Source: Physcia stellaris (Eukaryota; Ascomycota; Lecanoromycetes; Caliciales; Physciaceae). From it: a stretch of 64,000 nucleotides of DNA. This document shows, one piece after another, positions 2,813 through 31,082 of this stretch. Each line of letters opens with the position of its first letter. Position 1 is the stretch's first letter. The stretch is from assembly GCA_018902385.1 (NCBI GenBank), contig JABSSW010000004.1:62001-126000 (forward strand). Reading direction: 5' to 3'. The translations under genes and the position numbers were made by a program. The notes below the pieces were generated by a model. That model was not told the DNA's origin, made no database searches, and saw only the letters and a list, made by a program, of their open reading frames with translations.

Positions 2813-5510
2813 TGTTGAAATAAAAATAATTCATTGATTATATCGATGATGATACTAAGTGTACAAAATTTGAAATTGAAATTTTCATCAAATTTTTTGC
2901 AATTTTAATTCTAAATGAACTAATTGCAACATTTTTTTTCGAATCGAATTCGAATAAAATTTATTGACGAAAATGAATTTATCATCAAAAATTGATGTGA
3001 ATTTCATTTTACGTTGTAAAACATTTCAATATTCAATGTAATGATTTAAAATCGAAAAAATTCAACATGTTATGATAACAATACAACGTTTTTGAATTTA
3101 ATTCATGTTCAACATTTGAATAAAACAACGAAACTTGATAAAAATCAAAATTTTGATAAATTCGTCGACAAACATGTTTTGAATAAAAATGTAATGTAAA
3201 CGAATTCGATTAATTTTGATTTCGTTTCGAATGTAATGATAAACGATATCGACGTGTTTAATGCGATCATGATAAATTGAATTTTCGACGAAAATTTTGA
3301 CATTTTGATTATCGATATGTATTTGTAAAATAACGTATTTGTCACGTTAATGATGAATGTATAAATCGACGAACAAATTTCGAAATCACGTGATTTTTTA
3401 ATAATCGTCGAAATAATTATATAATTTGCAACGCATGTGAAAGTGATCACGATAAATTGAAATTTTGACATTCAATTTATTGATTTTTATTGAAAATGAA
3501 AACGTAAACGTCAATTGATTTTTTAATGATCAAATCGTTATCGTAATTGACGTTACAATAATTTTGTGAATCAAATTTTTTTTTCGTAAACAATGTTTAA
3601 ACGATCAATAATATTGAAATAATCGAAAATATCGTTTACGACGTTCATGTGAATTTTGTTTGAATTTTGAACGAAACGATTGACGATAAAAATGACGTTA
3701 AAAACATTTGATTTGATTTCGATCATGACAAACATGACGAAATCAATTTTGATTTGATACAATTTTGTGTCAAATTCAAAAATTTGATTTTCGTTAAAAA
3801 TCGAAACGAAATTCGTTCGCATTGAAATATGTATTGATTTGATTTCATTTCGATCAAATTTGATAACGATGCGTTTGATATAAATTTTTTGATTGAATCG
3901 AATTTTTTTGCGATCACGATTTTTGATGACGATCATGTTTAAATAAAAATTAATTGATTTCATATCAATCATTTCGAAAACAACGAACAATTTTTTTTTG
4001 ATTTTGTTGATCATGACGATGAAAAAAACAATAATTTTGATATCGTCAATTCAAAAAATGAATATGAAATTTTGAAATTTTTCGTCGTTGCAAAAATACT
4101 GTGATCGACGTGTAAATAATGCAAATTCAATTTTTCAAAAAAAAAATTTGCTAAACGTTCGTATCATAAGCGAGAAAATTGTTTAAAATCGTATAAAGTT
4201 TTGTGAAATTTGCAAATTCTTTTCTCGTTGTAATTTTCAAAATATTTAACGTATATTTTTGTATCGATGAAATCGTAAAAAAAAACAATTTTGACGTTCA
4301 TTTGTTCGATTTTCAAATTCAAAAATGCGACGATAACGAACAAAATTCGAAAAATCATTGATTTGATCACGAAAACAAAAATTTGTTCGAAATCAATGTT
4401 ATATTGTTGCAAATAATTTTTAACAATTCATCGAATTTTGTAACGAATTATTTTTTTCGACATTTCGTTTGATTTTGAAAATTCATTTATCGTTTAAAAA
4501 TTTTCGATCATCGAATGTACGATTTATCAAAATTCATGTATTGTTTTTGTTCAAAAATTGAATTTCGTTTTCGACGACGTTCATTCAATTTGACGAATTT
4601 GAATTATTTATGATTTGTGTTCATGTATTGAATTCGTCGTCATTCATATTGTTGAAAACAACGAAATTTTCAAAATTTATGACGTTTTGAATTTCGATAA
4701 AATCAATTAACAATGAAATTGAATTGACAACGCATGAATCATTGTATCATTCGAAAATGCGTTTGACAAAAATAAAATTTTCGTCGATACAATTCAAAAA
4801 AACGACGAAATCGTCGAAAAAATGCTTTCAATTTGTCAATAATTTTGTTATAACAACGTTAAATATTTTTGTCGTATTGTTTGATATAAACGAATAAACA
4901 AATGAATTTATAAAAAAATCAATTTGTTTGATTTGACGATTTGAACGCATGATGATAAATCTATAAAAAATGATTGAAAATATGTTTTGTGAAATTTTTA
5001 ATGCGAATTTGATTTTGCGAAAAATAATCGATTTATTTTTGAATGTAATAATTTTCGAAACAATAACGTTTGAAATTGTGTTTGAAATAATAAAACATTT
5101 TTTTTGTTCAAATGCAATAACTTCGCTAAAAATCGTGTATTGTTTGAAAATTGCGACATCGTAAAAATCGACGTTTTTAATTTTGCGTATTTCGTTGTCG
5201 TTAAAAAATGAAATTTATACACGATAAATCGTGTCGTCGTCGTATTTAATGAAAATGTTTTTGTCATCGCGAAACTCGAAATGATTTTTGTGTTTGAAAT
5301 TTTTGACGACGTACGCGATAATTTCAAATAAATGCAAATTAAAAAAATTTGAAACAATATTTATAAATTTTTCAATAAAATTCATGTCGTCAAAAAAAAT
5401 CGAAAAACGACGATTTTTGATATATGTCATGATCAAAATGACGTTTGATTACAGAAAATCAAATATATTATCGTCAAATAACGTCGTTTGAATCATGATT
5501 GTAATTGTAT
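2813..5510 (-). mobile_element. Truncated Ty1/copia retrotransposon
   Basis: The minus-strand frames show a copia pol remnant in the usual order. A post-integrase segment lies near 5215-5436 (ends IKYDDDTIYRV), followed by reverse transcriptase (4164-4412 and 3571-4014) and RNase H (about 3480-3540, KSIDVYVFIFN). The RT frame includes the IEQMNVKIVFFYDFID stretch and an IDDI active-site segment at about 4044-4055. The integrase core and gag are missing: the element stops at 5510, exactly where the LTR of the neighbouring gypsy element begins. A possible terminal TGTTGAAA lies at 2813, but I found no second LTR. The element is dead. Confidence 0.8.
3130..5436 (-). pseudogene. copia pol remnant (IN tail, RT, RNase H)
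   Basis: Several minus-strand frames separated by stops and shifts together give a degraded copia polyprotein. The piece at 4164-4412 aligns by eye with the copia RT start (DFEQIFVFVIKSM, then LYDFKQ). The piece at 3571-4014 continues with FEMIDMKSINFYL and KIYIKRIVIKF. At about 3540-3480 in another frame the RNase H start appears with the first Asp context changed to DND. Lysines are almost all AAA, and Gly and Trp codons are widely lost, as expected from GG to GA change. It does not encode a working enzyme. Confidence 0.78.
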
Positions 5511-5704
5511 TGTTAAACGTGATGTGTCGATTGATTGATTTAAAAACTATGAACGACGAAATGTCAATTTATGTACAGTAATTGCGAATCAGTTGTTTGA
5601 TCATCACTCATTTAATATGAAACGACGACAAAATTTTTGTCAAATGTTTTGCAAAAATATTCGATTTAATTTCAAATCATTCAATCTGATTTTGTGTCAT
5701 AACA
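5511..5704 (-). repeat. 3' LTR of minus-strand gypsy element
   Basis: 194 bp, starting TGTTAAACGTGATGTG and ending GTGTCATAACA. It is paired with 12736-12929 at roughly 85-90 percent identity. Most clear transitions between the two copies fall at CpT or ApG sites (about seven), with one at CpA. Confidence 0.9.
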
Positions 5705-5925
5705 ATTTGTCAATCAAAAAAAAAAAAATCAATGTTTTATTGAGTTTCATGTTTTATCATCATGCGTAATCATATCATGCATCAATTTTTTTTTTTCGCT
5801 TTTTTTTTGTCGTTGCGATCATCAAAGTTTTGCGAATGATTGAATTCGTATTGCTCAATGAAATTTTGAAAATTTTGTAATTCGAAAATAAATCGTCATT
5901 CGTCATATTTCGATTCATAGTCGAT

Positions 5926-8900
5926 TCATCTGATTAAATATTGAATTACGAGAATTTTGTTGTATTTTTTGATACGTTTGTCGATTAGCTTTTCGATTTC
6001 ATAAAATTTGTATTGATTCGTATCGTTTTCGATTTCAATGAAATCAAAATAATGAAAACGAAAACGATTGTAAAAATCAACGTCAACAAATGTTGATTCG
6101 AGTTGTGCAATAAACACAACGAAATGAATTCGTCATGTTGATGACAATTTCAATCGATATGTTAAACGTTCGATGCGTTCAAAAATTCGAAATGATTCGC
6201 AACGTTGTTGAAATAATTTCGAATTTGATTTGTCAAACAATTTGTAATTTTTGTTAAATTGTAAATAAATTTTTCATTTTGCTTTAATCGAATAAAAATA
6301 TGACATGAATCATAATATATTTTGATTTTGACAATTGCAAAGTTCGTGACATCGACAATTTTTCGTTGATATTTCATGCGTTGAATTGACAAATTCTGTA
6401 CATTTGTTGTGTTAAATTCGATTAAATTTGATATCGCGTTTTTGATTTTGAATTCGTATATGATTTCATTGAATGATAAATTTGTAACGATGTTAAACGT
6501 GTTGTTTAACTGAATTTGAATTGCAAAAAAAATTAAAATGTAATCGATGTTCGAAAATTCGATGACGAAATATTTGATAACAATTTCAACAATTTGATTG
6601 ATTCGTTTTGACGAATCGTTCGTTTGCGAATGATATGTCATTGAAATTAACAATTTCGTGTCTAATTTGATGAAGAATATCTGTCAAAAATTCGACATGA
6701 ATTTTGAATCACGATCGAAAATTATAATTTCAAACATTTTTCAATCGACGATTAATAGTCTGTTCAGTAATGCATTGATTCATTTTTTCGTTTCATAAGT
6801 GTTTTTGTCGAAAATCAATGAAACTCGACGAAAATGTTTGCATGTTGCGAACATGACAATGTTCATTTCGTCGAACATAATTAGAATAAAATCAATAGCA
6901 ATAATATGAAATGAACGCGAAACGAATGTAATAAACATGAATTTTTCGTACGATCGATAACGTTTGATTTGTGTCAATTGACAAATAAAACAATGCTCGA
7001 TGTATTTTTTAATTTTTCGCGAAAATCGAAATATGTATAACGTATTGAAAATTCTGTCATAATATCGATGAATTTTTGAATGTTAATTCGTATCGTGAAT
7101 TAAACGAAATATTTCGCGTTTCACAACAACAAATATACACGATCGACGCGTGTCAATGTCAACATGATATATAATGTCATTCGTATTCAACGCGAAATTG
7201 ATTTTTGTTTTGAATTTTCTTGATATAAATTTCGTATCGTCATTTTTTTGTTCATTGACGTTTCGTTTCGCTACGTTGTTTTCGAGCGACGATGAGATTT
7301 GAAAATTTCGAATCGACAATTTTTGTTTTTTTTTTGCATTCGAATCGTCAACGATTTTAACATTTCGATCATGTTTCGTCATGTTTTTTTTTTTTGATAT
7401 TCGTTCTTGATTTTTTTTTTTAGATTTTTCGACATTGCGATGAATGTGTTTTGAAAAACGTAGCAATCGAAATTATTCGAAAAATCGATTATCTCGTCAT
7501 GATATGTGTTCAAATCAAATTTATTTTCTGAATTCTTGTCGATTTGCTCATTTTCAGAAGTTAATTTTGATAACGCATTCGAGACAACATGATTTTTTTT
7601 TGATCTATATTTCATTTTCAATTTAAACTGTGACAGATAGATTGAAGCACGAACGAGACGAAAATTGAATTTATCGATATTGTTCGAATTCATCGTGATT
7701 TGCTTAACGATGAAAATATTGACGACATGATTCGTGAACACAACAATGATATTTTTGATTGTTTTTATCATATGTCGAATTTTTTTGACAATTCATATTA
7801 AATCACACATTTCGAATTCGATGAATCAATATTTGATTTCGATTTCGTTCAACATTTTGTTTAAAAATAAAATGAATTCGATGTCGTTACGTTTGAATTT
7901 GTTTGAATTGCTGCTTGTTTTAAAATGATAAATCATCGCGTCGAATTCGCGTCGTTTAAACGCGTCGATGTCGATGTACAATTTTCGATCGAAATTGAAA
8001 CGTATCAGAAATAAGATTTTGCTAAACGTTTTTTGCAATAGTCGATATGATTTTAATTTCTCAATTGAAAAATTGTTCATTACAATTTTTTGCGAATAGA
8101 TTTTGCGAATCGTCTTTTTGTTGTTTGAAAATTGACGTAAAAATAGAATTTTGCGACGTTGTAACGCGTTCGTCTTTTGAACATAAAACGCGACGAAATC
8201 TCGTAATCATTCTGTAAAATCTAAATAGATTTTCAAATCTTTGAGAATATAGAAAAAATTCAATTTGACTATTGTTTTCAATTTGTCGATTGCGATAATG
8301 AAATCAAAAACGTCAATTTTTGATCAAAAATGCGATCGTAAAATAATCGAAAAACGATTTTTCGACGACAAATTAATCTCATAAACATTCAATCGTTCGA
8401 ATATCGAATGTAAATAAATCATATGTTTTTCAAAAATATTGAAAAAAACAACAATGTTATTTACGTAAACACGAACAAATTCGCGAAAATTTCGAAAAAT
8501 AAATCGATTCGTCGTTGTACGTATGATGAAAAAATTTTTGAAATTTCATCATGATGCGACGTTAAATTGTTTTTGTTTTTATGTGAAAACGACGATAAAC
8601 TTATGTTTGTTTGCAAACTTTATCAATTATTGATGAAAAAAATTTGCAACGTCAAAAACGAAAATAAATTTGCATTCGACGACAATTGAAATAATGTTTG
8701 ATTGAAAAAACATAAAATAAAAATCGATTAAATGATTTTGTTTAATTCGCGTATATTCACGACGATTCGATTTTTGCATTTTGAATCATTTGATTCAAAT
8801 ATTGTTTTTCATATTGCGAAAACAAAATAATCATGCGAAATTGATAATTGATCGATATATTTCATTGCGATTTTGAGCGTGCAATTTATCGAAAATCTCA

Positions 8901-10312
8901 TCAACAAACTTTCGATTTGCGAGATCGAAAAATAAATTTTCGTTGTTTCGATTTTCGCGTCGAATTTGAACTCAATCGACATTCATTTTCAGACGAAATT
9001 CGCACAATAAACTCGTTATCATTTCACAATTTTGAATAATTTTCGAACATTTGCAAATTTAATTCGAGCGTTAATCATCGTAAATCGTGATATTTCAACG
9101 AACAAGATTTTTTCAACATTAATGTTTGAATTTGAACAAAATTGTTAGAATTTTCGCACGAATTAATTGCAAAATTGATCGTAAAATTGAAATTTGAAAC
9201 GACGAAATTAAACGCGATCGCATCGTGCAAATTCTCATAATTAATCGCGATAATCGCGTTAACGATCAAAATCGAAACATCAAATTTCATAATTTGTTTG
9301 AATCAATTCGTGAAACAAATTTATAAACATTAACAATTAAATAAACGTATTTCGAATTAACTAAATAACATTTTTTTTTTTTCGTATTTTGTACGAATTT
9401 CAAACGCGTATTTTTGAAAATGTAAACATTTTCAAAATTGACGTTGTTCGTTTGAATCACTTCTGTATGTGCATCAATGATATGAAAAATACGTTTTCAT
9501 TTGAATTTAATCGTTCAATTCGCGAAAACGTGAACATAAAATCGCGTTCAATAAATAAATTATTCTTTTCACGTAACTTGAAAAAAATCGTAAAAATTGA
9601 TTTAATTGAAATTTTAATAACATTGACACGAATCACGCGTTTGATCAACGATTTCGCATTAACGACATTTAATCAATTTTAATGTTTTTGCAATTTTCAA
9701 TGATAATCATCTGTTTGTTTACATTTATATTCATTCGTTTTGAATTCAATATATCATTGTCAAAAAATCTTTGTTTTCAGTTTTTTTATTATGTAAATTT
9801 GTCGAGTGAACGTGACGATCGCATTTTCGTCATTAATCGAAATTTCGAAAATTCGAAAAATTAATGAAATATGATTCGTCGTGATTACAACGACGTTTTC
9901 AATGTCGCGAATTTTGAAAAATTTCATAATTTGTCGCGCATGAATTTGATAATCAAATATTTTTTGCATCAAAAATTTACGATCGATTAATGACGTATCG
10001 CATTCGATATCGACGCACATATTCGTGAAACATTGTTCAATGTTGATTTTCATCGTGACGTAACGTCACGAGCGAAATTCAAATTGAATCGCGTATTTGT
10101 TTTGACGTTTGATTGTATAATAAATGTTGATAATGATCATGAGTATTTTTCGTCAACGATATGTCAAACTTAATCGAAATTGTTTGACACGAACGCAAAT
10201 GTCGATGAAATTTATTATTGAAATAAAATTTCGATTGACAACGTTTGCACGAATAAATTTTCGTCTGTTTTGCAAAAATATTCACAAAGTATTCGAATAA
10301 TTCATGATTCAC
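5926..10312 (-). pseudogene. gypsy polyprotein remnant (finger, PR, RT, RH, IN, chromodomain)
   Basis: Read on the minus strand. A C2HC finger at about 10190-10255 keeps the pattern CKRC...HRHLRSC. The protease keeps IECDTSLIDR where DTG-TSLIDR is expected. The RT active site YVDD has become YVNN at about 8456-8464, with both catalytic Asp codons now Asn. RNase H keeps LYIDIDAFKRR. The integrase keeps FHIIAIDFIL and YDSCHIF. The chromodomain start EIEKLIDKR...QYLIR is followed at once by a TGA where Trp is expected. Glycine and tryptophan loss follows GG to GA change. I name the domains by resemblance to chromovirus Pol proteins. Confidence 0.85.
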
Positions 10313-12735
10313 AAAATTCTCGTTAAATTTTTGATTTCGAAATGTTTTTCGTCATGATATTCATCATTTATCGTAAGTATTTTCGACGCGTTTTCAATAT
10401 TCATGTTGTGATCGTTTTGATAATTTTTTTCGTCGTTCGAATAATTGTTTTTTGCTTTTTCATTCGCAAAATACGTTCGTCGATATAATGTTTCATCTTG
10501 ATTAAACGTTTCATCTTGATTAAAATAAATATTTTGTTTAAACGAAAACGAAAATGAATTTGAAAAATCAGCAAAATATTGACTAAAACGTAAAATTGCG
10601 AATACTGAAATCGCGAATCGAACGTGTTTCGATTTTTTTGAATTTCGTTTTGTTGCGTTTGTTGAAATCGATATTGTTGATTTTCGTATGAACGTTTTTA
10701 CATATTTTGTGTCGATTGTTGTCGATTTGAATAATTTGATTGATATAAACGTTGTTGAAAAATGTAAACGTTATTTTGCTTTTCAAACTGATACGATGTC
10801 GAATATTGAATTTGACGAGATTACGAAAAAATTTATTGAAATTTTCGTAATTTACACGTTCATTGATAACAAAAGAAATATTATACGAATCGAATGATGT
10901 TGACAAAATTGATAATTGAAAACGATAAATGAATTAAAACAACGTTCGTTTTCGAACGAATAATAAAATCGATATCGATTTTCGATATTTCATCATATTT
11001 TTTTTATTATCAAGCTGTTGAAAAACTCATTCATTGTAATTTTTTTTGTCGATTTGATCAAATTTCGTCGAAATTTCAATTTCAACTCATTGTAAATTAA
11101 ATACAATTGCGAATAAATTGATATCATTGTCGATTTAGTTTTTTTTGATTATAATTTCAACGAAATCGAATGATTCGCGATGTCGACGAACATTTTTTAT
11201 CGTGTATTTTTTTTTTCGTGATGATCGTCAACGTTGTCGATGACGATTTTTTCAACGTTTTAACAACAAACGTTTTCATTTTTTACGTTTTTCGAATTTA
11301 ATCAATCGTTTTTGATCATCGTCGATTATTTTCAATATTAACGTAACGCGTAATCACGCATGCAATTATAAAAATTTGTTCAAATCACATCAACATTTTT
11401 GAGCAATGTCATATTTTTAATTTTTCAATATAAAATGAACATTTCGAAAATATGTATTTTTGTTCGAATGTTCGATCGAATTGTCGATAATAACGTTTTT
11501 TCGTATCACGAATCAAAAAAATTTTGTTTTTTTGAACATTTCATTTGACGTCATCATCATTGTCAAAAATTCGATTGAATTTGATGATTCGACGAATTTT
11601 GAAATTTTGTTTGAACGATTGTTTTTTTTCGAACAAAATTAAAATTTTTGTCATTGTTGTTGAATGAATTCAATGTTTTGTCAATTGTTATTTTCATTCG
11701 TCATGTTTGTATTAAATGCGAAAATAAATTCGATATTTTTGTGTTTCAAAAAATAATATTCAACGAAATTATGATGTTGTTTCGTCGTGAAAAAAACGAA
11801 ATCGACGAAATGATTCAAATTTACGACGTAAATTTTTCGAAAAATAAATGTAAAAAATATCAAAAAAATATTTGCAATCGTCGATTTTAAATCAAAAATG
11901 AATGACGTAACACGATCATTAATTCAATCGAAAAACGATTGATTATTTCGATAAATTTTCGACGATCACGAAAATTTTAAAATTTTTGCGAAAACGAATT
12001 TTGTCGACGATTCATTTTGTTGAATAAACAATGTTTGTCGAAATTAAATGATTAATAATTGACAACGATGTTGATTTAAAACAATTAATTACGATGTTGT
12101 TCACAGTAATTTTGTCGACGTATCGACAAAATAAATCAATCAATTGTATCGATTTAATCGAATAACTCAAACGCAATGCGAATGATTTGTGATATAAAAA
12201 CAATCAAAATGATTTAAAAAAAATGATGTGTCGTATTGAAATTTGAAATAAAAAAATAAACAAAACAAGAAAAAAAAAACGAGTTGAAATTTTCAAAATA
12301 ATTCAACAAATTTTCTGTGTTAAAAAAACAAACGAAATCGTTAAATTGAAATTGTTCGAATCAAACAAAAATTCGACGATAAATTGACATTCAAATGCGT
12401 CGTCATTGAACGATGACAATGCGAATTTTCACGAAAAATCGAAATGCTAATATTTGAAAAAAATCAATCGTTTTTGCTGAAAATTGTAAAAAAAATTGAA
12501 AAATTTGATTGAAATTTTCATTTTCAACTCGAATGTCTATTGATTGATAATAAACGATTTCGATCGACACGTCAAATCGAAAAAGCAATAAAATTTTCGA
12601 CGATAACAACGAAAAAATTTTGAAATTCAATCGACATTTTAAAATCGTGCGTTATTTCGAAAATCGATACGTCAAAAACAAAAAATAATGTCGATTTGTT
12701 TACGTACGATCATCAACTTGAATGATGTTATCAAT

Positions 12736-12929
12736 TGTTAAACGTGATGTGTGAATTGATTGAATTTAAAAATTGTTAACGACGAAATGTCAATTTATGT
12801 ACAATAATTGCGAATCAATTGTTTGATCATCATTCATTTATTTTAAAACGATAACAGAATTTTTGTCAAATGTTTTGCAAAAATATTCGATTTAATTTCA
12901 GATTATTCAATTTGATTTGTGTCATAACA
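12736..12929 (-). repeat. 5' LTR of minus-strand gypsy element
   Basis: 194 bp, TGTTA...TAACA, a direct repeat of 5511-5704. Because the element runs on the minus strand, this copy is upstream. The primer-binding site should lie just below 12736 but is too degraded to assign to a tRNA. Confidence 0.9.
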
Positions 12930-15900
12930 TGACGTTCAAACGTGTTCGAGTTTAAAAACGAATTAAAATTTTTGAATTGAAATTTTGAAAATAATTAAAA
13001 AATTAAAATTATTTTTCATGATTTAATAAATCTTTTAAATTTTCGTTTAACACGAATATATATCAACAACGACAAAAAGCAAATTTATTTAAAATGTTTT
13101 ATTTTGAATTCAAAATTTGCGACGAATTAACGAATTAAAAACGCAAATAAATATTTTGTCACAACGATGAAAATTATAAATTGTAACGACGAATATCGAT
13201 TGAAAACAAATCTCGATATTTATTAAATTTTTCTAATTTTTTAATATTTTAATATTTTTCAAAAAAAATATCTCGTCAAAAACGACGTTCAAAACGATAC
13301 AACAACACATTCAAACGAATTTTTTGTCGAATTTACAAAAACATTTCGAATTCAAAATCGAATACAAAATCATTCATTAAAAATTCGATTTGAAAAATTT
13401 ATCGAAACAATATAATCAAAATTCACTTGAAATTGATAATAAATCAGTTATTTTTCAATTTATCGATTCGTCATTAACTATTCATAAATTTCGATTTTAT
13501 GCAAAAAATTATTTCAGATTTGAACAACATTGCATTTTGAAACAAAATGTCTTTTTGAAATTCAAAAAAATTTCAATTTAATCGAATTTACAAAAAAATC
13601 AATCGAAATAAATTGAAACAATTTTTTAAAAGTGCAATTAAAATAAATCATTTCGAACGAATAAATATCAAAAATTAATTATAATTTTAATGCGCAAAAT
13701 CAAAACGATCGACATTTAAATGTTTGTTTAAACGTTCGAACATTAAATGTACGATTTTCGAATATAAACAATTTATCGACGAAAAATTCACAAACGAAAT
13801 ACGAAAAAAAACGATAAACAATCAATAAAAATTAATGAATTTAATTAACATAACGAAAATCGATTTCATCGTACAAATTTCAAACATTTTTTCGATTAAC
13901 ACAATAACGTCATATCATTTGCACGATTTCGATTTGTATTTTCGATCACGAATATTAATAATTCAAATTTTATTTACATCGACGAAAAATTTCGAATTCG
14001 ATAATTTATTCAATTTTCAATTTATCGTCGAATTTTTGTAATTTTGTATTTTCAAATTGCAATCAAAATTTTTCGTTTCGTTCAATAAATTAAATTTGAA
14101 TTCAAACAATCAAATTCATTTTCAAATTACGAAAAAACAATTTCATTTTTTGACGCAATTTCGAAAAAAAATCTCGCGAATCGTCAACGAAAAATCGATT
14201 CGATATTCAAAATCAAACAAATTTTCAAAAACAAATTTTGCGATTTATCGAAATTGAAAAAACTCGAATCGAAAAATAAACGTGTTCAATTGAAATTGAA
14301 AAAATCAAATTAAAACAAAATGAACGACGTTTCACAAAAATAAATAAAAATTTGAACAAAACAAAAACTAATAAAACATTAATAATTATTATATCAGTTT
14401 TCATTTTAATTCAAAAAACAATTCAATGTTTATTAATTTTTTGTTTAAATAAATTTGACATTTGAAATTAAAATTTCATTTCGAAAAAATCAAAAAAAAA
14501 CTAATTATGAAATAATTAGAAGTTTTACAATTTAATTTCAATTTTAATCAAATACAAAATTTTTCGATGATTATTCGAAAATTTAATAAATTTCGAAAAA
14601 TTAATTGTTAAATTAAAATTTTTACTGTGTTCGTCGTTTGATAACAAAAAAATTTATTTTGAATTGATATAAAAAAAAAAATTATACAATTAACAAATTT
14701 TATTAATTATAAATTTAAATTTAAAAAATAACATAAAAAAAAAAAAATTTTTAACGAATTTGAATACAAAAATATTTCGAATTGAATTTTATTTAAATGA
14801 TACAATATTTAAATCGACAATTTTAAATAAAACAAAATTAAATAATTTTTAAATTTATCAATATTTATATTGAAAATAAAATTTCGAATTCTATTTATTA
14901 TAATTTTTAAATTATTGTTTATGTTATCGTAAATTAAAAAAATTAAAATAATATTGAAAAATAAAAAAATTATTAAAAACAATTTCAATTAAATATAATA
15001 ACAAAATACATAAATTTTTTTCTAATTTAAAAACTAATTGAAAAAACAATTATAACATTATAAAATAATCTTTATTATATAAATAGAAATATTTAAAAAA
15101 ACAATAAAAATGTTCATCTATTGTGTTTTTTCGAAATTAAAAAATTAAAAAATTAAAAAATTAATAAAGTTAAAGTTTGTTATCAATGTTAAATTACATG
15201 ATTAAAACGTTTGAAAAAAATAATTAATTTTTTATTAATCAGATGAAATCAATCGATTTGTATAAAAAATTTGTTTCAAAATTCGAATATATTACAAAAC
15301 ACATTGTTTAAATTTAAAATTTCCGATTTTCGATTTTATTCACGCGCGAATTCAATAATTTACATGACAAATTGAAATAACGTTTTATTGATTTTTTTCG
15401 AAAACACGAAAAATGAATTTCAAAATGATTATTAATTTTCTATTATTAATATTAAATTCTAAATGTTTTCATTAAAATTTGTAATTAGTTTTTTATCAAT
15501 TGAATTGACAATTCAAATTTTAATAATTTTTGTTTTGCACATCGATTTTTTTTTTTTTTCGTTGATTTTTTCAAAAAACACATACATGTGAAAACTATTA
15601 ATGAATACGAAAAATGTGAAATCAATTAAATTTTTTTCGAATGATCGTCAAAATTTAATGCGTAAACTAATTAACTTTCGAAAAAAATAAACGAAATTTT
15701 GCATTACTAATTTTCTATCGAATTAATTGCATATTGTAAAACGTCATTTTTTGAAATTAATACGAAACATTCGATATGCGACGTTTATCAAATTATTTTT
15801 GATTTTAATTTGAATTTCGATTTCGTTGACTAAATTCGTTTTGATTAATTGCAAAATTTTAAATTTTGAACAGAAATTTTCGAATTTTTTTTTTGTTATT

Positions 15901-18310: not shown

Positions 18311-18315
18311 TAATC
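18311..18315 (+). repeat. Target-site duplication, left copy (TAATC)
   Basis: TAATC directly precedes the left LTR and is repeated at 25771-25775 directly after the right LTR. Five bases is the size usually made by Ty3/gypsy integrases. Confidence 0.9.
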
Positions 18316-18512
18316 TGTAATGCAACGAAATCGATCAAACGAACGCTAAAACGCTGTGAATCTAATTGTCGCATTTCGTGCTTATATATTCGAAATTTCA
18401 CGAATTTTTTTCTGTTTTTTTAGCAATTAATTCTATTATGTGTTTAGCATTTATCATAGCAATTCATACTATTATTCGCACATTTTAGTCACGCAATGTT
18501 TACATTTTTACA
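18316..18512 (+). repeat. 5' LTR of plus-strand gypsy element
   Basis: 197 bp, TGTAATGCAACG...TTTTTACA. It is less saturated by mutation than the interior, since several CT and AG dinucleotides remain. Compared with the right LTR, about ten transitions fall at CpT/ApG and two at CpA/TpG. Confidence 0.92.
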
Positions 18513-18566
18513 ATTTTAATTGCTTTACATCAAAAATTGCTCGATTAAAAATGTTCAATTCAACAA

Positions 18567-19922: not shown

Positions 19923-19939
19923 CAAATGATTTTGTGTGT
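19892..19939 (+). pseudogene. CCHC zinc knuckle remnant
   Basis: Read in the frame of 19892, the sequence gives CFSCHKSNHITNDFVC. The pattern CX2CX4H is kept, but the fourth ligand expected four residues after the His is Phe, and the next Cys lies six residues after it. This is the nucleocapsid knuckle expected at the end of a gypsy Gag. Confidence 0.7.
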
Positions 19940-22900
19940 GAAAATTATGCGCAAATTCAAAAAAAAACGCAATCAAAATCAAAATCAATCGTCGAAAAAA
20001 AAACGAATTTGATGTTTGTCGTTAAAACATTGAAAATAAATTTCAAACGAAATAAATTTCGTGTTTTGATAATCACGTTATCAATCAAAACATTTGTTAC
20101 GCAAACAAACAATATAACAATTATTTGTTTGATTGATTTTGATGTCGAAACGAATTTTATATCACAGATTTTTGTCAAACAAATGCAATTGTTTGAATTC
20201 AAGAAAATTGCTAAATAACATGTAGAAATTGTTGACGATCGTGTGATTCAAATGTATGAACATCATAAAAACGTGCATATCATGACACGAAATAGTGAAA
20301 AACATGTAAAAAAGCAAAATGTTGATTTTTGAACGATTGATATGCGTGAATACGACATGATTTTTGAATATTCATGATTAAATGTTATCGATTTTGACAT
20401 TCGTTAACATGATCGTCGTTGACTATATCGTGATGATAATTATGAAAAATTCAAACAAATTTCAATCAATTTTTGTTTTGCGAAAAAATTCGTTGATTTA
20501 ATTATAATTGTCATTGCGAATCGCGATCGTTTTTATGTCGCAATGTTATATCAAATGTTTTTTTTAACACAGAATTATCAATATCGAAAACGAAATGTTG
20601 TTCGTTGTGATGCGTTACAAATGAATCGCAACGATTACATTTTTGATGTTATCAAAAAAATAATCGAAATATTTTTCAAAACGTTGTCGAACAATTTGAA
20701 TACGCATGATCAAATCGAACATGTTATTGATTTGCAATCAAACAAAAAATCGCGTTTTGAATTTATATACAATATGTCACACGACGAATTTATTGTTATA
20801 CGCAATTATTTCGAGAATGCGTTGACGAAAAAATGAATTCGTTTTTTCAACGCATTTGCGAAAACATTTGTGTTGTTTGTCAAAAAATCAAATGACAATT
20901 TGCGTTTATGTGTGAATTATCGAAAATTCAATGAAATCACGATCAAGAACAATTATTCATTGTCGTTGTTGTTTGAAACGTTAAAACGTTTCGCGAATGT
21001 TAAACATTTTATCAAAATAAACATTCGAAATGCGTATCATAAAATTCGTATTCGTCAAAAAAATGAATGAAAAATTGCTTTTCGTACTCGCTATGAAAAA
21101 TACGAATATCAAATTATGTTTTTCGATTTTGTTAACGTTTTTGCTATTTTTCAATTTTATATTAATGAAATATTAAAGTCATACATTGACGTTTTTTGCG
21201 TGATGTATTTGAATGATGTGTTGATTTATTTTGAAAATGAACAACAACATTGAAAACATGTTCGTTTGATGTTTAAAACGTTGTTACGTTATCGTTTATA
21301 TGTCAAATTGAAAAAATGCGAATTCAACAAAAAAAAATCAATTTTTTAGATTTCGTTGTTGAACGCAATGATATTCAAATAAAACGTTCGCGTATAAACG
21401 CAATCGTCGATTGATTTGAATTCGAAAATGCGAAAAATATCATGATTTTTCTAGATTTTGTTGAATTTTATAAACGTTTTGTTAAAAAATTTTCGCAAAT
21501 CGTAATATCATTTACGAATTTGACGCGTGATGCGAAAAAAAAAAATCGTTTTTCATTTGTTATGACAAAAAAAATTAAAATTGCGTTCAACGAGTTCAAA
21601 ATTAAATTCACGATTGTTTTTATTTTTACGCATTATGATTGAAAAGCGAAATTACGCATGAAAATTGATGTTTTTGATCGCGAAACAAATAATGTGTTCA
21701 ATCAAAAAAATAAAAACGATCAATGACATTTCATTGCGTTTTTCAATTACAAATTCAAAAAAGCAAAAATTAATTGAAATACGCATGACAAAAAACTGTA
21801 TGCGATAATGTTTGATTTCAAAATTGAAAACATTATTTGCAAAATAACAAACATTTCATTCGCGTTATTTTTGATCACAACAATTTTCGATATTTTATAA
21901 CAATCAAAGAATTCAATGCGAAACAAATTCGCTGAATTGAGAAACTAATTGCGTTTGATTTCAATATAAAATATCGCAAAAACAAATTGAATTTTGCGAA
22001 CGCGTCGTCGAAAAAATTTGATTTTATGAAATCGAACGATAACGACAAAAACAACGATAAATTTTTGTTTATTTTGCGAAACAAATTTCGCAATCAAAAT
22101 TATCAATTTGATTTGCAAAACGATTAACGTATGTTTGTTTCAATCAAATTTGCAACATCGACAACGCGATTGCGTAACATTGTTACGACAAATATTCGAA
22201 ATATTGTTTCGAATGAAAAAGTTTTCGATAAATATGTTTGCAGAATTTTAAACATTGTCGCATTTCGATTTTTAATTCATCAAATTATGAAATCGAAAAA
22301 ATTTTATTTAAAATTGCGAAAATCAATGATTGCGTGATTATTCAAATTACAACAAAAAAACGTTTTTGTTGTTGAAAAACAATGACGTCAAAAATACGCA
22401 AACAAACAAAACGAACTTTCGAAATGAAATGTTGAAAAAAATGAATTGTTTCGTCGTGATTTCGCAATTTATGTGTTTGAAAATTTTGTTACAAAACAAG
22501 AAATTTTTCGTATGAATCATGACGATTCAAATGTTGAATATTTTGCGCGAACAAAAATCGAAAATGTTGTGCGACGCAAATATTTTTGATTTGATATAAT
22601 TAAAAAAATAACAAATTATGTACGCATTTGTTTAAATTGTCAACGAATGCGAATTTATCGACATAAATTTTATAACGATATGATAACAATTTCGTCGAAA
22701 AAAAAACAATCATTTGATACAATTATCATGAATTTCATTACAAATATGTTTTTTGTTAAAAATTTTTATACGAAAAAAATTAACGATTCAATATTAATAT
22801 TGATAAACAAATTGACGAAATACGCAACGTACATAACAATCACAAAAACGTTAAACGCGATAAATTTTGCGAATTTGCTATGACGAAAATTCGTATGTCG

Positions 22901-23919
22901 TCATGAAATGATGCGTAACATTATTTCGAATCGGAAATTTTTTTTCACAAACAATTTCTGATTTATTTTGTGCTGAAATTTGAAAACGAAACGTAAATTT
23001 AACATTGTTTTTCATTCACAAACAAATGAACAAACAAAAAAACAAAATATTGTGTTCGAACATTATCTGCGTATGTATTGCAATTTCAAGCAAAATAATT
23101 GATCAGAATTGTTATTTATGACACAATTTGCTTACAATAATAACAAACATTCAAACATTGATCAAATTTTTCAAAAAATTTTGTCTGAATACGTTGCGAT
23201 TCTAAACAGCGATTTTGTGAACAATTTTCAAAAAAAAAAAACAACATTTGCAACAAACAAAACAAAAACGTTGCGAAACAATCGAACGCATTTAATGAAA
23301 TTGTGAAAAACGATTTTCGAACAGCAAATCAAATATTATAATGAAAATCATATAATGAAAAGTTTTGAATTTGAAAAAAAAATGTTGTTACGTGATGTAA
23401 ATATACGCACATTGCGTTTCAAAAAAAAATTGATCATAAACAATTGAATTTTTTCGAAATTGTCAAGAAAATAAATACGCAAATTTACGAATTTGATTTG
23501 TTTATTCAATATGAATTCATACATTTTGTGTTTCATGTTTTTTTATTCGAATTTTGATATAATCGTGACGACGCAAATTCAAAATCGCAATCAATATTAA
23601 TGAAAAACGAAAAAAAAAATAAAAAATATCGCAAATGTTAAACAAGCGCATTAAAAAAAATCAATTTGAATATTTTATTGCATGAATAAATTCATCGTCA
23701 TATGAAAATTCGTGAAAATCAATGAAACATTTCGAGAATGCGAAAAACGCAATTGTCAAATTCGAAAATGCGCGCGAATTACGCAAATCTGAAAAAATTG
23801 CGAAACGTCGAAAAACAGACAAATTCAAAACGAAATCGAACGAAAAACTTTCAACAAAAAAACAAGCACGTCAGTTTCTAAAACTGAAAAAACATGAACG
23901 ATTCAAAAAGCAGAAATAA
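19934..23919 (+). pseudogene. gypsy pol remnant (PR, RT, RH, IN, chromodomain)
   Basis: The protease shows LIDFDVETNFISQ where a DSGAT-NFIS motif is expected. RT shows LCVNYRKFNEITIKN, then the active site YLND at 21206-21217 instead of YLDD. An RNase H/connection segment (FLDFVEFYKRFVKKFS) follows at 21442. The integrase has a zinc-binding end ICLNCQRMRIYRH at about 22625-22665 and a core with ILINKLTKYATYI, where Asp is expected at the Asn. A chromodomain near 23650-23770 reads YFIA-stop-INSSSYENS-stop, both stops being TGA where the conserved Trp residues belong. ENAKNAIVKFENARE closes it. This element belongs with the chromoviruses. Confidence 0.87.
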
Positions 23920-25578
23920 CAGTAATTGCGACGCAAAAACACAAACAATAAAATGATATTGTGAATTGTTTTTGATTATATGCACAGTTTGCATGCAACA
24001 AACAAACAACAGAACAACACGTCACAATAAAAAACAAAATTCAACATTCAACGAGAAAAAACACAGCAACAAACAAAATCATGCGATCATTAAATCGAAA
24101 AAAACACGAAAATGTAAATCAACGCGTCAATAAATTCATCAATCAAAATTCACATCACAACAATCAAATCGATTTCGATTGCGTCATGTTAATTGTCGTC
24201 GCGTTTAATGAAATTTGTTTATCATTGATTACACGATTTGATTGAGTCGAAATCGACGCAAAAACAAACGCGACAGCAAACGAATTTGTTTGCGATGTAA
24301 ACGCAACGAAATCAACAAACGAAACAAACGCGAACGAGACGAAAACGAAAAAAATCGAGAAAAAAACGACGCGAAAGTCGAAAAACGAAACAAAAAAAAT
24401 TCGAGTTTTTTTTCGAGCAAAAACAGAAACAAACGAAAAAAAAAAAATGACAAACAAAACGATTTTTTTTTCAGCAAGTTTTGACGTGACAATCAACGCA
24501 ATTTTGCGAAAAAGATTTTGATAAAAACAACGAATTTTTTTATGTCATTTTGTTTCATGTTAGTCACGTTATACATCAAAAATCGTATGTTACTATTTTT
24601 TCAATGTTGAAAAATCAATTTCAAATTGTCGTTATTTTTGACAACGAAAATGCGAACGTTGTTTTGCAATTTGTAAAAAACATTGTTTTTTTCACAATAA
24701 TGAAAGTTTTTGTTGCAAAATTCGCATTTGTTTCGTTTGTTTTCGTCAAAAAAAACGCAAACGTGTTTTGAATCAAAACGAAATTTTCGAACGCAACGTT
24801 GACATTACATATGAATTGATTTTGTTACGCGTCAAATTGATATGAAACAACTGTGTGTGTTTATTTATTGAGTTTGATTACAATGCAATCGCGAACATCG
24901 CGATTCGAATACATTTTTGTTGTATTGATTGTATTCAACAATTCGAACGTAAAAAATTTATCAATCTAACACGCGTTAACAACGTCATCGTTATTTACAA
25001 TACATTTACAACAAAAACAACAAATTGCGTGTTTTTGCGAAACGTAACAAACAACGACGAAAAAAAGAATGAAATCATAATTTGTTGCATCGTTAACACA
25101 CGCATTGTATTGTCGACGTTCGAAAATCAATTTCGTCGTCATTGAAATATTATTGCGACAACATCATCATTTGCAAAAGCAATGTGATAATTGTACAAAC
25201 AACGATATATCATGTTGACATCATTGTCGCAATAATTGTTGTTATCGCAAAAACAAAAAAAATCAAATGAAATATTTATCATGCTATGAAATAAAAATGC
25301 TAAAAAAAAAAATTCAAAAAATGAATTGAAAAATTGAAATAAACATTCATCAACACACGACGCGATTCATTTCGACTCGATTTCACAACACGAACGCGAT
25401 ATTTGAAATTACATTACATTGTTATTGTTATTTTTATTTATTGAATTACAATGTTTCAAAATTACACGTCGAAAGCACAAAGTTATTTACAAAACAACGT
25501 TGTTGCGATACATTTCTGATATGTTATAAAGACATTGATAATTGACGCGAAAAATCGATCATTCAAAAAAAAAACAAT

Positions 25579-25770
25579 TGTAATGAGACGAAATCGATCA
25601 AACGAACGTTAAAACGCTGTAAATTTAACTGTCGCATTTCTATATATTCGAAATTTCACGAATTTTTTTTTGTTTTTTTAACAATTAGTTCTATTATGTG
25701 TTTAACATTTATCATAACAATTCATATTATTATTCGCACATTCTAGTTACGCAATGTTTACATTTTTACA
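25579..25770 (+). repeat. 3' LTR of plus-strand gypsy element
   Basis: 192 bp, TGTAATGAGACG...TTTTTACA, a direct repeat of 18316-18512 with a few small indels. Confidence 0.92.
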
Positions 25771-25775
25771 TAATC
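25771..25775 (+). repeat. Target-site duplication, right copy (TAATC)
   Basis: TAATC directly follows the right LTR and matches 18311-18315. The tandem array begins at the next base, so the element inserted at the edge of that array. Confidence 0.9.
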
Positions 25776-26890
25776 GCGAAATTTAGCAATTTTCATTCAT
25801 TTGTATGCGAAAAAATTTTCGATTTTTCAACAATTTTATGCGTTTTCGATGAATTTGTTTCATTTATGCATTATTGAATTTCGTTTGTCGTGTTTTTTAA
25901 TTTTCAAATTTTCAATATCGATTATTAATCAATTTTTTTTTAAATGAATTTTGAATAATTGCGAAATTTTTTCGCGATTTTCATTCATTTGTATGCGAAA
26001 AAATTTTCGATTTTTCAACAATTTCATGCGTTTTCGATGAATTTGTTTCATTTATGCATCATTGAATTTCGTTTGTCGTGTTTTTTAATTTTCAAATTTT
26101 CAATATCGATTATTAATCAATTTAATTTTAGATGATGTTTGAATGAATGCGAAATTTTGCAATTTTCATTCATTTGTATGCGAAAAAATTTTCGATTTTT
26201 CAACAATTTCATGCGTTTTCGATGAATTTGTTTCATTTATACATCATTGAATTTCGCTTGTCGTGTTTTTTAATTTTCAAATTTCAAATATCAATTATTA
26301 ATCAGTTTTTTTTTTAAATGATGTTTGAATGAATACGAAATTTTGCAATTTTCATTCATTTGTATGCGAAAAAATTTTCGACTTTTCAACAATTTCATGC
26401 GTTTTCGATGAATTTGTTTCATTGATATATTATTGAATTTCGCTTGTCGTGTTTTTTAATTTTCAAATTTTCAATATCGATTATTAATCAGTTTATTTTA
26501 AATGATGTTTGAATGAATGCGAAATTTTGTAATTTTCATTCATTTGTATGCGAAAAAATTTTCGATTTTTCAACAATTTTATGCGTTTTCGATGAATTTG
26601 TTTCATTTATACATTATTGAATTTCGTTTGTCGTGTTTTTTAATTTTCAAATTTCAAATATCAATTATTAATTAGTTTTTTTTAAATGATGTTTGAATGA
26701 ATGCGAAATTTTGCAATTTTCATTCATTTGTATGCGAAAAAATTTTCGATTTTTCAACAATTTCATGCGTTTTCGATGAATTTGTTTCATTTATGCATCA
26801 TTGAATTTCGTTTGTCGTGTTTTTTAATTTTCAAATTTTCAATATCGATTATTAATCAGTTTTTATTGAAATGATTATGAAACGATGCAT
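25776..26890. repeat. Tandem array, six units of about 185 bp
   Basis: Six head-to-tail units of 184-187 bp. The anchor TTTCATTCATTTGTATGCG starts at 25791, 25978, 26164, 26350, 26534 and 26718. The units are highly similar. Differences between copies are mostly C/T or G/A and fall at CpT/ApG (CGCTTG versus CGTTTG; ATCAGTTT versus ATCAATTT) and at CpA/TpG. There are no spacers, so it is not a CRISPR array, and no open frame runs through the units. Confidence 0.93.
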
Positions 26891-27239
26891 ATTTTTCGCA
26901 ATTTTCATCATATTGTGTATCGACAAATAAAAACGTTTTCAAAACAACAAATCATTTATGTCATTTTTTAACAAAAGCAAATCTAAATTAAATATTATTT
27001 AAAACGAAAATTCATTTAAATCAGTTTTTTTTTAATTTTTTTTTTTGATTGTCAGATTTCGTTCGAAAGTTTTCACAAATCAATTATTAAAATTTGTTCA
27101 TTTATCATTTTCATTTTGCGCATTAAAACTGAAAATCAATTAGTTTAATAATAAAAAACATTTAGAAGATTTTTTTATTTTTTACGTGAACGATGATTCG
27201 ATTCGATGATATTCGTAATTGATTTATTTTTCAATCAAT

Positions 27240-27640
27240 TAAATATTAAAAATTTTTCAAAAAACATTTATTCGTTTCGTTTTTTTTCAAATTTTGCATT
27301 TGAAATCGATGAAATGTTTTTAATTTTCATTTAAAAAAATATTGAAAAATTTTCAAAAAACATTTATTCGTTTCGTGTTCGTTTTTTTGAAACAAATGCA
27401 AATTCAAATTTTGTTTTTGAAATTTTTGTATTTGAAACATTTAATAATATATTAATTTTCATTTAAAAAAATATTGAAAAATTTTCAAAAAACATTTATT
27501 CGTTTCATAATTTTAATTTTTTTGATTTTGTTTTTGATTTTGCAATTGAAATATTTGAAACAAATGAAAATAATCTAATTTTCATTTAGAAAAATATTGA
27601 AAAATTTTCAAAAAACATTTATTTTCGATTTTGATTTTTA
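27240..27640. repeat. Degenerate tandem repeat, four units of about 95-130 bp
   Basis: The block ATTTTCAAAAAACATTTATT recurs near 27255, 27350, 27483 and 27605, each preceded by TTCATTTAAAAAAATATTG or a variant. Spacing is irregular. No coding potential is visible. Confidence 0.75.
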
Positions 27641-27879
27641 GAAATTTTTGTCATTTGCGCGATTTTTGTTGTTAAACGTGAAAATACGAAATTCATGTTT
27701 CGATTTATATCGAATGAATTAAAAATTTTAGTTTTCATTCAATAAATTTTTGAAAATTTTCGTTTTATCATTTACGATGAGAAATTGCGTTGAACGAACG
27801 CTCGATACGTTCGTTGATTTTTGATTTTCAATTAAAACAAAATCAAAATATCGACTTTTAACATTTATTTTACATTAAA

Positions 27880-29482
27880 ATTTTCGAAAACGAATTCGAA
27901 TTCGTTGTTTGATTCAATATTAATTGTTCGATTATCAATTTTCGATTAAAAATTTTTTGAATGATTTCGATGAATTCATTTATTCGTCAAACACAAAAAT
28001 CGAATTGCGTTTTCGATTTGATACGTACGTAAAATCAAACATTTTATGAATAATTTTATCGTTTGAAAATAAATTGATTTCAAATTAACAATTTATTGAT
28101 TTTTGATTACATTCAAAAAATATTTACGAAATTTGTTTTTCGTCACGTTTCATTGCAAACGTCATCGACGAATTATCAATTTTTCATTAAAAATTTTCTG
28201 AATAATTTTCATGAAATATTTATTTTCGTTCACGATTTGATACGTACGTCGAATTTGACATAGAACACAATCTATAAAAAAATGTTCAGTATATTCGTTT
28301 AACGCGAGTGATCGATCGGAAAGAATTCTGATCAATACGAGAGTCTCGTTGCTTAAAGTCGATAAATTCAATCAATACTTAATTCACGTTCTTAATCGAA
28401 ACATACGTCAAGATCATTTCAAAACGCTTCAACGGCGTGCAATTACTTCACATCTTACACATCAATCAAGAATCACATATGATTTACAATTAATTAGTCA
28501 AAATTGTAAAGCAGAATCAGCGCATTTTAACTCTGTAAAAATAATCAAAATCGACTCATTATCGCAATAGTTCTGAAACTTCGAAGACTTCGTCGTTGTC
28601 AGATTTGTGTCAGATCGTCAACTGAGATGTCTGCGAAAAGATTTCGCTCAACGCTTCGTCGTCTGTACAATTATTTCGCATTTTGCATTTCAGTCAACAA
28701 TCACACATGATATACAATTAACTAGCCAAAGTTGTAGAGCAGAATGAGCGCAATTTAACGCTGCAAAAATGATAAAAATCGGCTCATTATCGCAATAGTT
28801 GTGAAGTTTGAAAAATTATGTTTTTGTCAAATTTGTGTTTGCATCTTGCGAATAATTCAACTTCTCGCAGTGTTTGCAATGCGATAATGCGATTTTCATC
28901 ACAATTCAATGCGACAACGATAAATTTTCGATATTTTTGATTATTTGAATAGAGTTCACTTCAAGTTTCAAAATGAGTCTTCGATTGTATGTTTTATTTA
29001 TTAAATGCAAATGTTATTAAGATGCGAAATCGATGAAATCGCAAAACGAATGCGAAATCATTGAAATTCTGATTTCGATGCGAAAATTTTCGCAATCTTA
29101 TCAGATCTGATTTTAATTCTGAAAGTCACTCAGCAAATTTTTTTTTAAAAAAAATTTCGAGCAAACTTGTTTTATGAATAAATTTATCGTTTGAAAATAA
29201 ATTGATTCGAAATTAACAATTTATTGATTTTTAATTACATTCAAAAAATATTTACGAAATTTGTTTTTCGTCACGTTTTATTGCAAACGTCATCGACGAA
29301 TTATCAATTTTTCATTAGAAATTTTTTGAATGATTTTCATAAAATATTTATTTTCGTTCACGATCTGATACGTACGTCGAATTTGACATTTTATAAATAA
29401 ATTTATCGTTTGAAAATAAACTGATTCGAAATTAACAATTTATTGATTTTTGATTACATTCAAAAAACATTTACGAAACATC
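27880..29482. repeat. About 220-bp tandem units split by an insertion
   Basis: Copies carrying TTATCGTTTGAAAATAAA... and ending GATACGTACGTCGAATTTGACAT lie at about 28041-28261, 29170-29390 and (partial) 29391-29482, with a more diverged copy before 28041. The first and second good copies are separated by 28262-29169, which is unrelated. Removing that segment restores a continuous array, so it was inserted into it. Confidence 0.8.
28262..29169. mobile_element. 0.9-kb insertion with internal direct repeat
   Basis: This segment interrupts a tandem unit after GAATTTGACAT. Unlike its surroundings it is rich in CT and AG dinucleotides, so it has escaped most of the hypermutation or arrived later. 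It contains two direct copies of about 190 bp (about 28422-28612 and 28652-28841, spacing about 230 bp), both ending in ATCGCAATAGTT...GTCA-ATTTGTGT. I find no terminal inverted repeats, no clear target duplication and no transposase. The 73-codon ORF at 28349-28570 is not recognisable. It might be a non-autonomous element or a displaced satellite. Confidence 0.55.
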
Positions 29483-29629
29483 GTTCGAAATACGAAAAAT
29501 CACATTTTCAATATTCAATTAAAAAAATTTCAAAAATTGATCGATAATTTTTACACGACAAAAAATTTTGAAAAATCATTTTCGTTTTTTTCGTCGCGTT
29601 TTATTGCAGAAAAAAACGATGACGAATTA

Positions 29630-30292
29630 TCAATTTTCAATTAATTATTTATTGAATTGCTTTCAAAAACATTCATTTGATTACGTTTTTGAAACGTGTG
29701 TTAAACGTCGATGTAAATGAATTATCAATTTTCAATTGATAATTTATTGAATTGATTTCGAAAACATTTATTTAAATGCGCGATTCATTAAAAATAATGA
29801 TCGAATCGTTGTCGCAAAATTATCAATTTTCAATTAACAATTTATTGAATTGTTTTCAAAAACATTCACATGAATTCACGATCGCGTTTTAATGATAATG
29901 AAACGAATGATTGCAAATCAAAAACAATTGTCGCAAAATTAACAATTTTCAATTAACAATTTATTGAATTGTTTTCAAAAACATTCACATGAATTCACGA
30001 TCGCATTTTAATGATAATGAAACGAATAATTGCGAATCAAAAACAATTGTCGCAAAATTATCAGTTTTCAATTAACAATTTATTGAATTGTTTTCAAAAA
30101 TATTCACATGAATTCACGATCGCGTTTTAATGATAATGAAACGAATAATTGCGAATCAAAAACAATTGTCGCAAAATTATCAATTTTCAATTAACAATTT
30201 ATTGAATTGTTTTCAAAAACATTCACATGAATTCACGATCGCGTTTTAATGATAATGAAACGAATGATTGCGAATCAAAAACAAAATCAAAT
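29630..30292. repeat. Tandem array, period 119 bp
   Basis: Four nearly identical 119-bp units contain TTTATTGAATTG at about 29841, 29960, 30079 and 30198, followed by TCACATGAATTCACGATCGC. Two shorter diverged units start at about 29635 and 29720. The last unit ends near 30292. No ORF is conserved across units. Confidence 0.9.
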
Positions 30293-31082
30293 GCGAACGA
30301 AATTTTAAATTTTTTTTAAATAATAATCAATTTTGCAAACATATTGTTTACGAAATCACGTTAACGAAAACATTTTTGTCAATGTTTATTAAATTATAAT
30401 CAATCATAATTCAAAAAATTTTTACAATCGATTTTTTTCGAAAATGTTTTCATTGATTTTCGTCGAAATATTTTGTATCAATCAATTTTCAATTCAATTC
30501 ACAATTGAAAAATTTTCAATTACATGAAAATGACGTTTGACATGTTTTTTAAATTCAAAAACATATTGATAATATTTATTTTGAAAATAATTTAATTAAA
30601 ATTCAAATATTTGAATGAAATCAATTAAATTTTTATTTTTTTGTCGAAATCATCGATACAATATTGACAAAAATGTTCGATTTTTTGTATTTATCATAAT
30701 GTTAAAAAAAATTGAAATAATTTCAAATTGTAATTACGTTGAAAAATACGTTAATTTTTATTACGAATTATCGATAACATTGACAATCGTCGATTTTACA
30801 CGACATTTTGACGAAAAATTAAAAAATATTAATTATTTTTTAATGATGAATTTGAAAACAATTAATTTTGATAAATTAATGATGAACGAAATGTATTATC
30901 ATGATGACGACGATTAAAACGAAAAAATGAATTGAACAGAAAATTTTTCAAAAAAAAATTGAAAAATTATTGATTGTGAGAATTTTGATTACGTTAACAC
31001 ATTTTGATTATTTGATTAATTTTGTTTTAAAAATGTTTTAATAATATTCGTTTATCAATTACACAGACAGTTGAATTTTGCA
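30293..31082. other. AT-rich remainder of the block
   Basis: No gene, repeat unit or domain is recognised. A 100-codon ORF at 30615-30917 is compositionally driven. The AT block ends abruptly at about 31083, where normal sequence resumes. Confidence 0.6.

Follow-up and report, generated by a model that had tools for sequence, protein, structure and literature searches.

C-to-T hypermutation at CpC and CpT in a repeat block of Physcia stellaris: a probable homology-guided process whose 3'-base specificity is inverted

The stretch of Physcia stellaris DNA analysed here (the window; 64,000 nucleotides, positions 62,001 to 126,000 of contig JABSSW010000004.1, GenBank assembly GCA_018902385.1) holds, at 2813–31090, a hypermutated block depleted of cytosine followed by a pyrimidine (CpY), as delimited by dinucleotide counts and by the edges of the signal; repeat homology extends to 31146. 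Long terminal repeat (LTR) retrotransposons, tandem arrays and duplicated segments are nested within the block, which is read below as the probable product of a process resembling repeat-induced point mutation (RIP) with an altered target.

Element 1 (5509–12929, minus strand) is bounded by LTRs at 5509–5704 and 12734–12929 with 90% identity, and its segment 5511–8412 could be aligned to a less mutated genomic copy, L047. Within it, an open stretch of 173 amino acids (6162–6683, minus strand) lacks Pro, Gly and Trp and has database relatives with PF24626 or PF17921. Element 2 (18308–25770, plus strand) is likewise an LTR element, with LTRs at 18308–18512 and 25572–25770 of 90% identity and a reverse-transcriptase match at 20882–21334 containing two TGA. 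To the left of element 1 lies part of a third repeat (2813–5508), recognised from copy alignments and probably representing an LTR element that element 1 interrupts; its terminal stretch of ~120 bases was found again 5–6 kb off in several copies. The two numbered elements are separated by AT-rich repeats (12930–18307), of which 15500–17500 has two other copies, on contigs C9 and C19. Element 2 is followed by a CpY-depleted 184-base tandem array (25771–26916), dispersed repeats (26917–29623) that are less fully mutated and hold four of the six residual CC/GG dinucleotides of the block, a CpY-depleted 119-base tandem array with diverged units (29624–30403), and a right repeat end (30412–31146) that shares 94% identity with a copy in inverted orientation on C19 and is unmutated in its final ~50 bases. 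Since much of the right part (15500–31146) matches C19 at ~176357–196083 in inverted orientation, the block holds a duplicated segment besides single elements. Pfam searches of two hypermutated open stretches gave no family, and Rfam and tRNA scans of the 64-kb window gave no match.

Dinucleotide counts over 2813–31082 revealed CC (2; observed/expected ratio, O/E, 0.00) and GG (4; 0.01) to be nearly absent and CT (214; 0.17) and AG (213; 0.16) to be strongly reduced, with CG (1520; 3.53), CA (1741; 1.31) and TG (1763; 1.36) abundant, TA at 1780 (0.44), AT at 3854 (0.96) and a GC content of 0.247. The control flank at 33000–64000 was ordinary, with O/E values of 0.96 for CC, 0.95 for GG, 1.06 for both CT and AG and 0.87 for CG at a GC content of 0.50. 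Mononucleotide shuffling of the block (200 replicates) gave a mean CC + GG of 861 (minimum 778) against 6 observed, and a mean CT + AG of 2629 (minimum 2542) against 427. All eight tabulated sub-parts of the block were CpY-depleted, the CT + AG O/E being 0.58 at 28001–29000. At 11641–11880, CC, GG, CT and AG were all absent, their sum of 0 comparing with a mean of 28 and a minimum of 14 in 5000 shuffles, beside 10 CA, 20 TG, 13 CG, 14 TA and 33 AT. The first-pass annotation, made from the letters alone, had described C before C or T and G after G or A as nearly absent and CpA/TpG and CpG as plentiful; counts and shuffles agree, and its estimates for 11641–11880 (about 10 CA, 18 TG, 14 CG, 14 TA and 33 ApT) were near exact.

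The standard indices do not report classical RIP in the block. Thresholds for a positive call are a product index (TpA/ApT) above 1.15, a substrate index of at most 0.75 and a composite index above 0 (PMC7882544; this and the other papers cited by PMC number were available in part). The block gave 0.462, 1.428 and −0.966, respectively, all three being negative by these thresholds, and the gene flank at 33000–64000 gave 0.642, 1.327 and −0.685. The TpA/ApT index is thus blind to the signal, as had been anticipated from the letters.

Counting C/T differences without regard to direction, over 415 alignments, was misleading: CpA (24849), CpG (25621) and CpT (29053) gave similar-looking totals, since the mutated copies have exhausted their CpY and diverged families are present in the alignments. 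Changes were therefore counted one way, from unmutated relatives, some of which have a GC content of 51% and open frames. The genome searched comprised 43,974,083 bases in 147 contigs of P. stellaris, which is smaller than the published 46.57 Mb. Seventy-four element loci were fetched, some of them overlapping, and 57 were classed as CpY-depleted and 17 as not depleted (CC/GG O/E below or above 0.6). The 17 represent nine places (L013, L045 and L051, for instance, lie in one element) and include the partly mutated L047 as well as L057, which passed the rule although mutated and normal DNA are mixed in it. The pool consisted of 21 of 58 mutated rows, equivalent to 20 places since L001 overlaps the window's own row; the other 37 were dropped, either for want, among the fetched loci, of an unmutated relative over at least 1500 bases at <1.5% transversions or because the nearest relative was L057.

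In the pool, C-to-T change affected 5198/5497 CpC (94.6%) and 4659/5836 CpT (79.8%), but only 397/5882 CpA (6.7%) and 197/5538 CpG (3.6%); 298 transversions in 45214 bases (0.7%) compare with 10451 C-to-T changes, and the CpC rate exceeded the CpT rate in every one of the 21 rows. The target is CpY: CpC is hit before CpT, CpA largely escapes and CpG escapes almost entirely. The CpY target on both strands proposed by the first-pass annotation is borne out. Measured from L013, L030 had changed at 440/442 CpC and 448/461 CpT (888/903 CpY) versus 26/444 CpA and 0/410 CpG, with 4 transversions in 3464 bases. For element 1 of the window (5511–8412), measured from L047, the counts were CpC 208/223, CpT 268/334, CpA 20/382 and CpG 17/362, with 40 transversions in 2900 bases. 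The less mutated L052 showed intermediate rates (CpC 335/444, 75%; CpT 175/397, 44%; CpA 13/414, 3%; CpG 9/418, 2%), which shows that CpC is mutated before CpT. A control pair of unmutated loci, L014 and L015, differed by C/T at 42 CpC, 37 CpT, 31 CpA and 23 CpG, without CpY excess. The 3' base was decisive and the 5' base minor, apart from a reduced GCT rate in partly mutated copies, and the residual CpA changes in L030 favoured CpApY (CAT 14/111 and CAC 7/75 versus CAA 3/153 and CAG 2/104). Differences within the LTR pairs of the window (element 1: CpT 7, CpG 3, CpA 3; element 2: CpT 12, CpA 2) involve few sites and are consistent but weak. Loss of CpG of the Masc2 type, through CpG methylation and deamination, was not seen, as is evident from the CpG excess of the block and the pooled CpG rate.

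These counts bear on whether the block reflects classical CpA-directed RIP disguised by a compositional illusion, or ancestors already lacking CpC and CpT. CpT is reported to dominate in some alignment-based analyses of ordinary RIP fungi, namely those of RIP-capable fungi (PMC7882544) and of Neurospora Tad1 (PMC2621366). However, CpC and CpT stand at ordinary levels (O/E ~1) in the unmutated relatives from this genome, the block is enriched in CpA and poor in TpA, and the directional counts for L030 and for the pool exclude both versions. CpC and CpT changes dominate, so neither of the outcomes that the first-pass annotation had named as fatal to its proposal, mostly CpA-to-TpA change or ancestral lack of CpT/CpC, was found. 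The CpA preference that is typical of RIP, though not strictly defining, is likewise absent, and we regard this explanation as practically eliminated.

Codons tell the same. CpA-type RIP would turn Gln codons into TAA and TAG. In a 321-codon frame of L013 with a reverse-transcriptase match, all seven Trp codons had become stops in each of the seven mutated copies compared, and 21/21 Pro and 22/22 Gly codons were changed, whereas 0/12 Gln and 0/4 CGA codons had become stops; one copy carried one extra TGA. Among the 150 reverse-transcriptase matches scored from 527 candidates, 250 TGA, 33 TAA and 3 TAG were counted and ten rows were stop-free; of 150 Integrase_H2C2 matches scored from 658 candidates, 144 contained TGA.

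The 173-residue open stretch of element 1 retrieved 12 related proteins, all from the source 'ena', some of which were only 55–63% identical to it. Nine of the 12 lack Pro and Gly, the three that retain them being P0240, P0243 and P0248. This hints that the relatives share the signature, with the reservation that a mutated query favours mutated matches. In four metagenome-predicted proteins, P0242, P0245, P0247 and P0249, Pro and Gly are absent and Trp is kept, partly at the usual Trp places, as if a gene predictor had read TGA as Trp (code 4). Hypermutated lichen repeats could be mistaken for code-4 microbial genes.

That 888 of 903 CpY sites in L030 changed alongside four transversions in 3464 bases points to a burst. 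Both strands were affected alike (CpC 183/183 and 256/258 in L030). In columns 800–1600 of the alignment of L052 to L049, one strand was mutated at 81/106 sites and the other at 7/97, which suggests action along one strand over a long tract; no such one-strand stretch was present in L078. A gradual alternative, in which CpY sites methylated by DIM-2 or a further methyltransferase lose their 5-methylcytosine by deamination over a long time and not in a burst, would draw on the DIM-2-like gene described below, and fungal DIM-2 methylation is not restricted to CpG. The near-complete change of L030 with untouched CpG contradicts a slow course, and mutation edges at the ends of homology, together with the 800-base one-strand stretch, fit an episodic process, so slow deamination is unlikely.

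The strand and context data also address an AID/APOBEC-like deaminase that edits retroelement complementary DNA before integration. Edges that match element ends would suit such an enzyme. AID/APOBEC enzymes, however, read the 5' base and act on one strand of the reverse transcript; here the 3' base decides, the strands are equally mutated, and tandem arrays and duplicated segments are mutated as well, which leaves this explanation barely tenable. A search for APOBEC_N (PF08210) gave no match, but since the controls likewise gave none, it is uninformative and was given no weight.

A sequencing artefact, in which methylated C in repeats was miscalled as T by Nanopore and left unpolished, was considered in the same light. 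Repeats polish poorly. The published P. stellaris assembly (46.57 Mb in 184 scaffolds, GC 43.3%, from an axenic ascospore-derived culture) combined Nanopore with Illumina data (PMC7513301), and the terms 'repeat-induced' and 'AT-rich' are absent from the available part of that paper. Near-complete change on both strands over 28 kb and the one-strand stretch of the partly mutated L052 speak against miscalling, and the nine related proteins without Pro and Gly, which come from another source, may do so too. We consider an artefact very unlikely.

Mutation is confined to repeated DNA, and its edges are the ends of homology, in keeping with the restriction to repeats claimed by the first-pass annotation. 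At the left end, 12 other near-full copies start at 2810–2813, which is the first mutated base, and 15 more short matches start at 2797–2813. At the right end, the sole other copy longer than 56 bases (C19:176357–177092) ends at 31146, and CpY-type sites are dense again from 31094 in the window. In the C19 copy, CpY-type sites fell from 23–34 per 100 bases in the outer flank to 13, 5, 3, 1 and 0 in the first inner bins. All three inner stretches tested were multi-copy: 3000–5000 has 12 other near-full copies at ≥93% identity, 15500–17500 the two copies given above, and 27700–29200 tens of partial copies in the genome. An LTR piece of element 1 gave 40 scored matches among 146 candidates in the genome, itself included. 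By contrast, 31100–33000 is single-copy except for 47 bases. Guidance by pairing itself would account for such edges.

The flank beyond, at 33000–64000, is normal gene-bearing DNA, as judged from counts and from Pfam matches of its open frames. Its genes encode MIOS-type domains, a member of the mandelate-racemase family, a CoA-transferase III, an ankyrin-repeat protein and a vacuolar import/degradation protein.

A PF00145 search of the genome gave four matches, read as three cytosine methyltransferase genes, one DIM-2-like and two of the RID class, so that homologues of the kind to which the first-pass annotation had drawn attention are present. L010 (contig C3) is DIM-2-like, with motifs SPCQGFS and ENV; its top solved-structure match is 9bap (E 2e-181), which we take to be DIM-2. 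L011/L012 (C5) is of canonical RID type, with motifs PPCQFFS and EQT, and is annotated as a 932-residue protein, P0121 (P. stellaris G7Y79_00005g016670), to which the L011 protein is 99% identical. Its paralogue L009, here called RID2 (C6:790057–794028), is a second RID-class gene with the motif PPCQSFS and EET versus EQT in motif VI; it contains two in-frame TGA within stretches that look like introns on visual inspection, the first being located as in L011. Of 101 methyltransferase domains submitted to a quick tree, four whose motif region was short or missing were removed; in the resulting 97-domain tree, L009 fell in a 38-row set (Shimodaira–Hasegawa-like approximate likelihood ratio test, SH-aLRT, 95), in which the lichen Heterodermia is the sole named organism, and L011 in a 46-row set (SH-aLRT 98). 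A RID-class enzyme may set the target, and a changed or second RID, namely RID2, is our leading if tentative candidate for the inverted specificity. That Physciaceae and their kin have a separate RIP-like system, run by RID2 reading CpY and not by the canonical RID, is possible but rather doubtful.

We conclude, with a probability of about 0.86, that the block was mutated by a RIP-like, homology-guided C-to-T process acting on both strands with inverted 3'-base specificity (CpY). Direct support comes from burst-like changes on both strands, their direction and their sequence context, the homology edges, the many genomic loci concerned and the three C5-cytosine methyltransferase genes. In such a process, repeats would recognise homology with one another, pairing being the trigger; a RID-class enzyme, its target pocket accepting a 3' pyrimidine and rejecting purines, would then mutate C to T on each strand. 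The process might run in the sexual cycle, before meiosis, and the new specificity might originate from RID2. Where the first-pass annotation had suggested a RIP pathway with changed context, the changed context stood, and the pathway is what we infer.

Several points weigh against this conclusion. Premeiotic timing and dependence on RID enter it by inference. The yardsticks substitute for the ancestor and represent three element families, and one of them, L047, is partly mutated itself (GC 0.43, CC/GG O/E 0.72). About 50 terminal repeat bases at 31094–31146 are unmutated. Only 1 of 20 evenly placed 1.5-kb genome samples was hypermutated and 19 were normal, which is less than the ~27% that the published GC content would lead one to expect, and all genome searches covered one species, P. 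stellaris.

With CpC ~95% and CpT ~80% mutated, the P. stellaris repeats imply that the target letter of RIP is almost fully invertible. The common RIP indices presuppose a CpA target; since these repeats read as RIP-negative by TpA/ApT, lichen genomes especially merit re-examination. Comparison or exchange of RID-class enzymes would now allow a test of what sets the specificity of RIP. If the RID2 reading is true, there would be fungi with at least two homology-guided mutators whose targets complement each other, and it would be the RID-class enzyme that determines the target letter.

A survey of 1,239 fungal genomes describes RIP-like defences as sharing a CpA preference (PMC12543289), and a literature search, with most subscription papers outside its reach, found no report of CpC-first, CpA-sparing RIP. 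Repeat-limited RIP signs are shared with two other lichen fungi: in Endocarpon pusillum, repeats have a TpA/ApT of 1.47, the classical sign (PMC3897900), versus 0.46 in the block, and TE (transposable element)-derived sequence of Cladonia rangiformis peaks near 16% GC (PMC12542154), below the ~25% floor that CpY-only mutation from 50% GC should have. Microbotryum and the rusts (Masc2 class), as far as the sources available in part describe them, share C-to-T change in repeats, but their target, CpG, is the most spared context in P. stellaris. Botrytis, Sclerotinia and Magnaporthe have a CpT component alongside CpA, which has been linked to enzymes of the RID class (PMC4352252); CpT is thus shared, whereas P. 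stellaris spares CpA and mutates CpC first, a term ('CpC') absent from that paper in its available part. In seven Sclerotinia elements, CpA and CpG were mutated more than CpY (Clutterbuck 2011, as quoted in PMC4188875). Trichoderma reesei likewise has homology-dependent C-to-T mutation, but its order is CpA~CpG, CpT>CpC (PMC5496416), so that CpC is last there and first in P. stellaris. Neurospora crassa RIP, with its RID and DIM-2 pathways, is matched in dense C-to-T change on both strands, confinement to repeats, dependence on the 3' base and, in P. stellaris, the presence of RID-class and DIM-2-like genes; the two differ in that the order is CpA>CpT>CpG>CpC in N. crassa (PMC5496416) and CpC>CpT>>CpA>CpG in P. 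stellaris.

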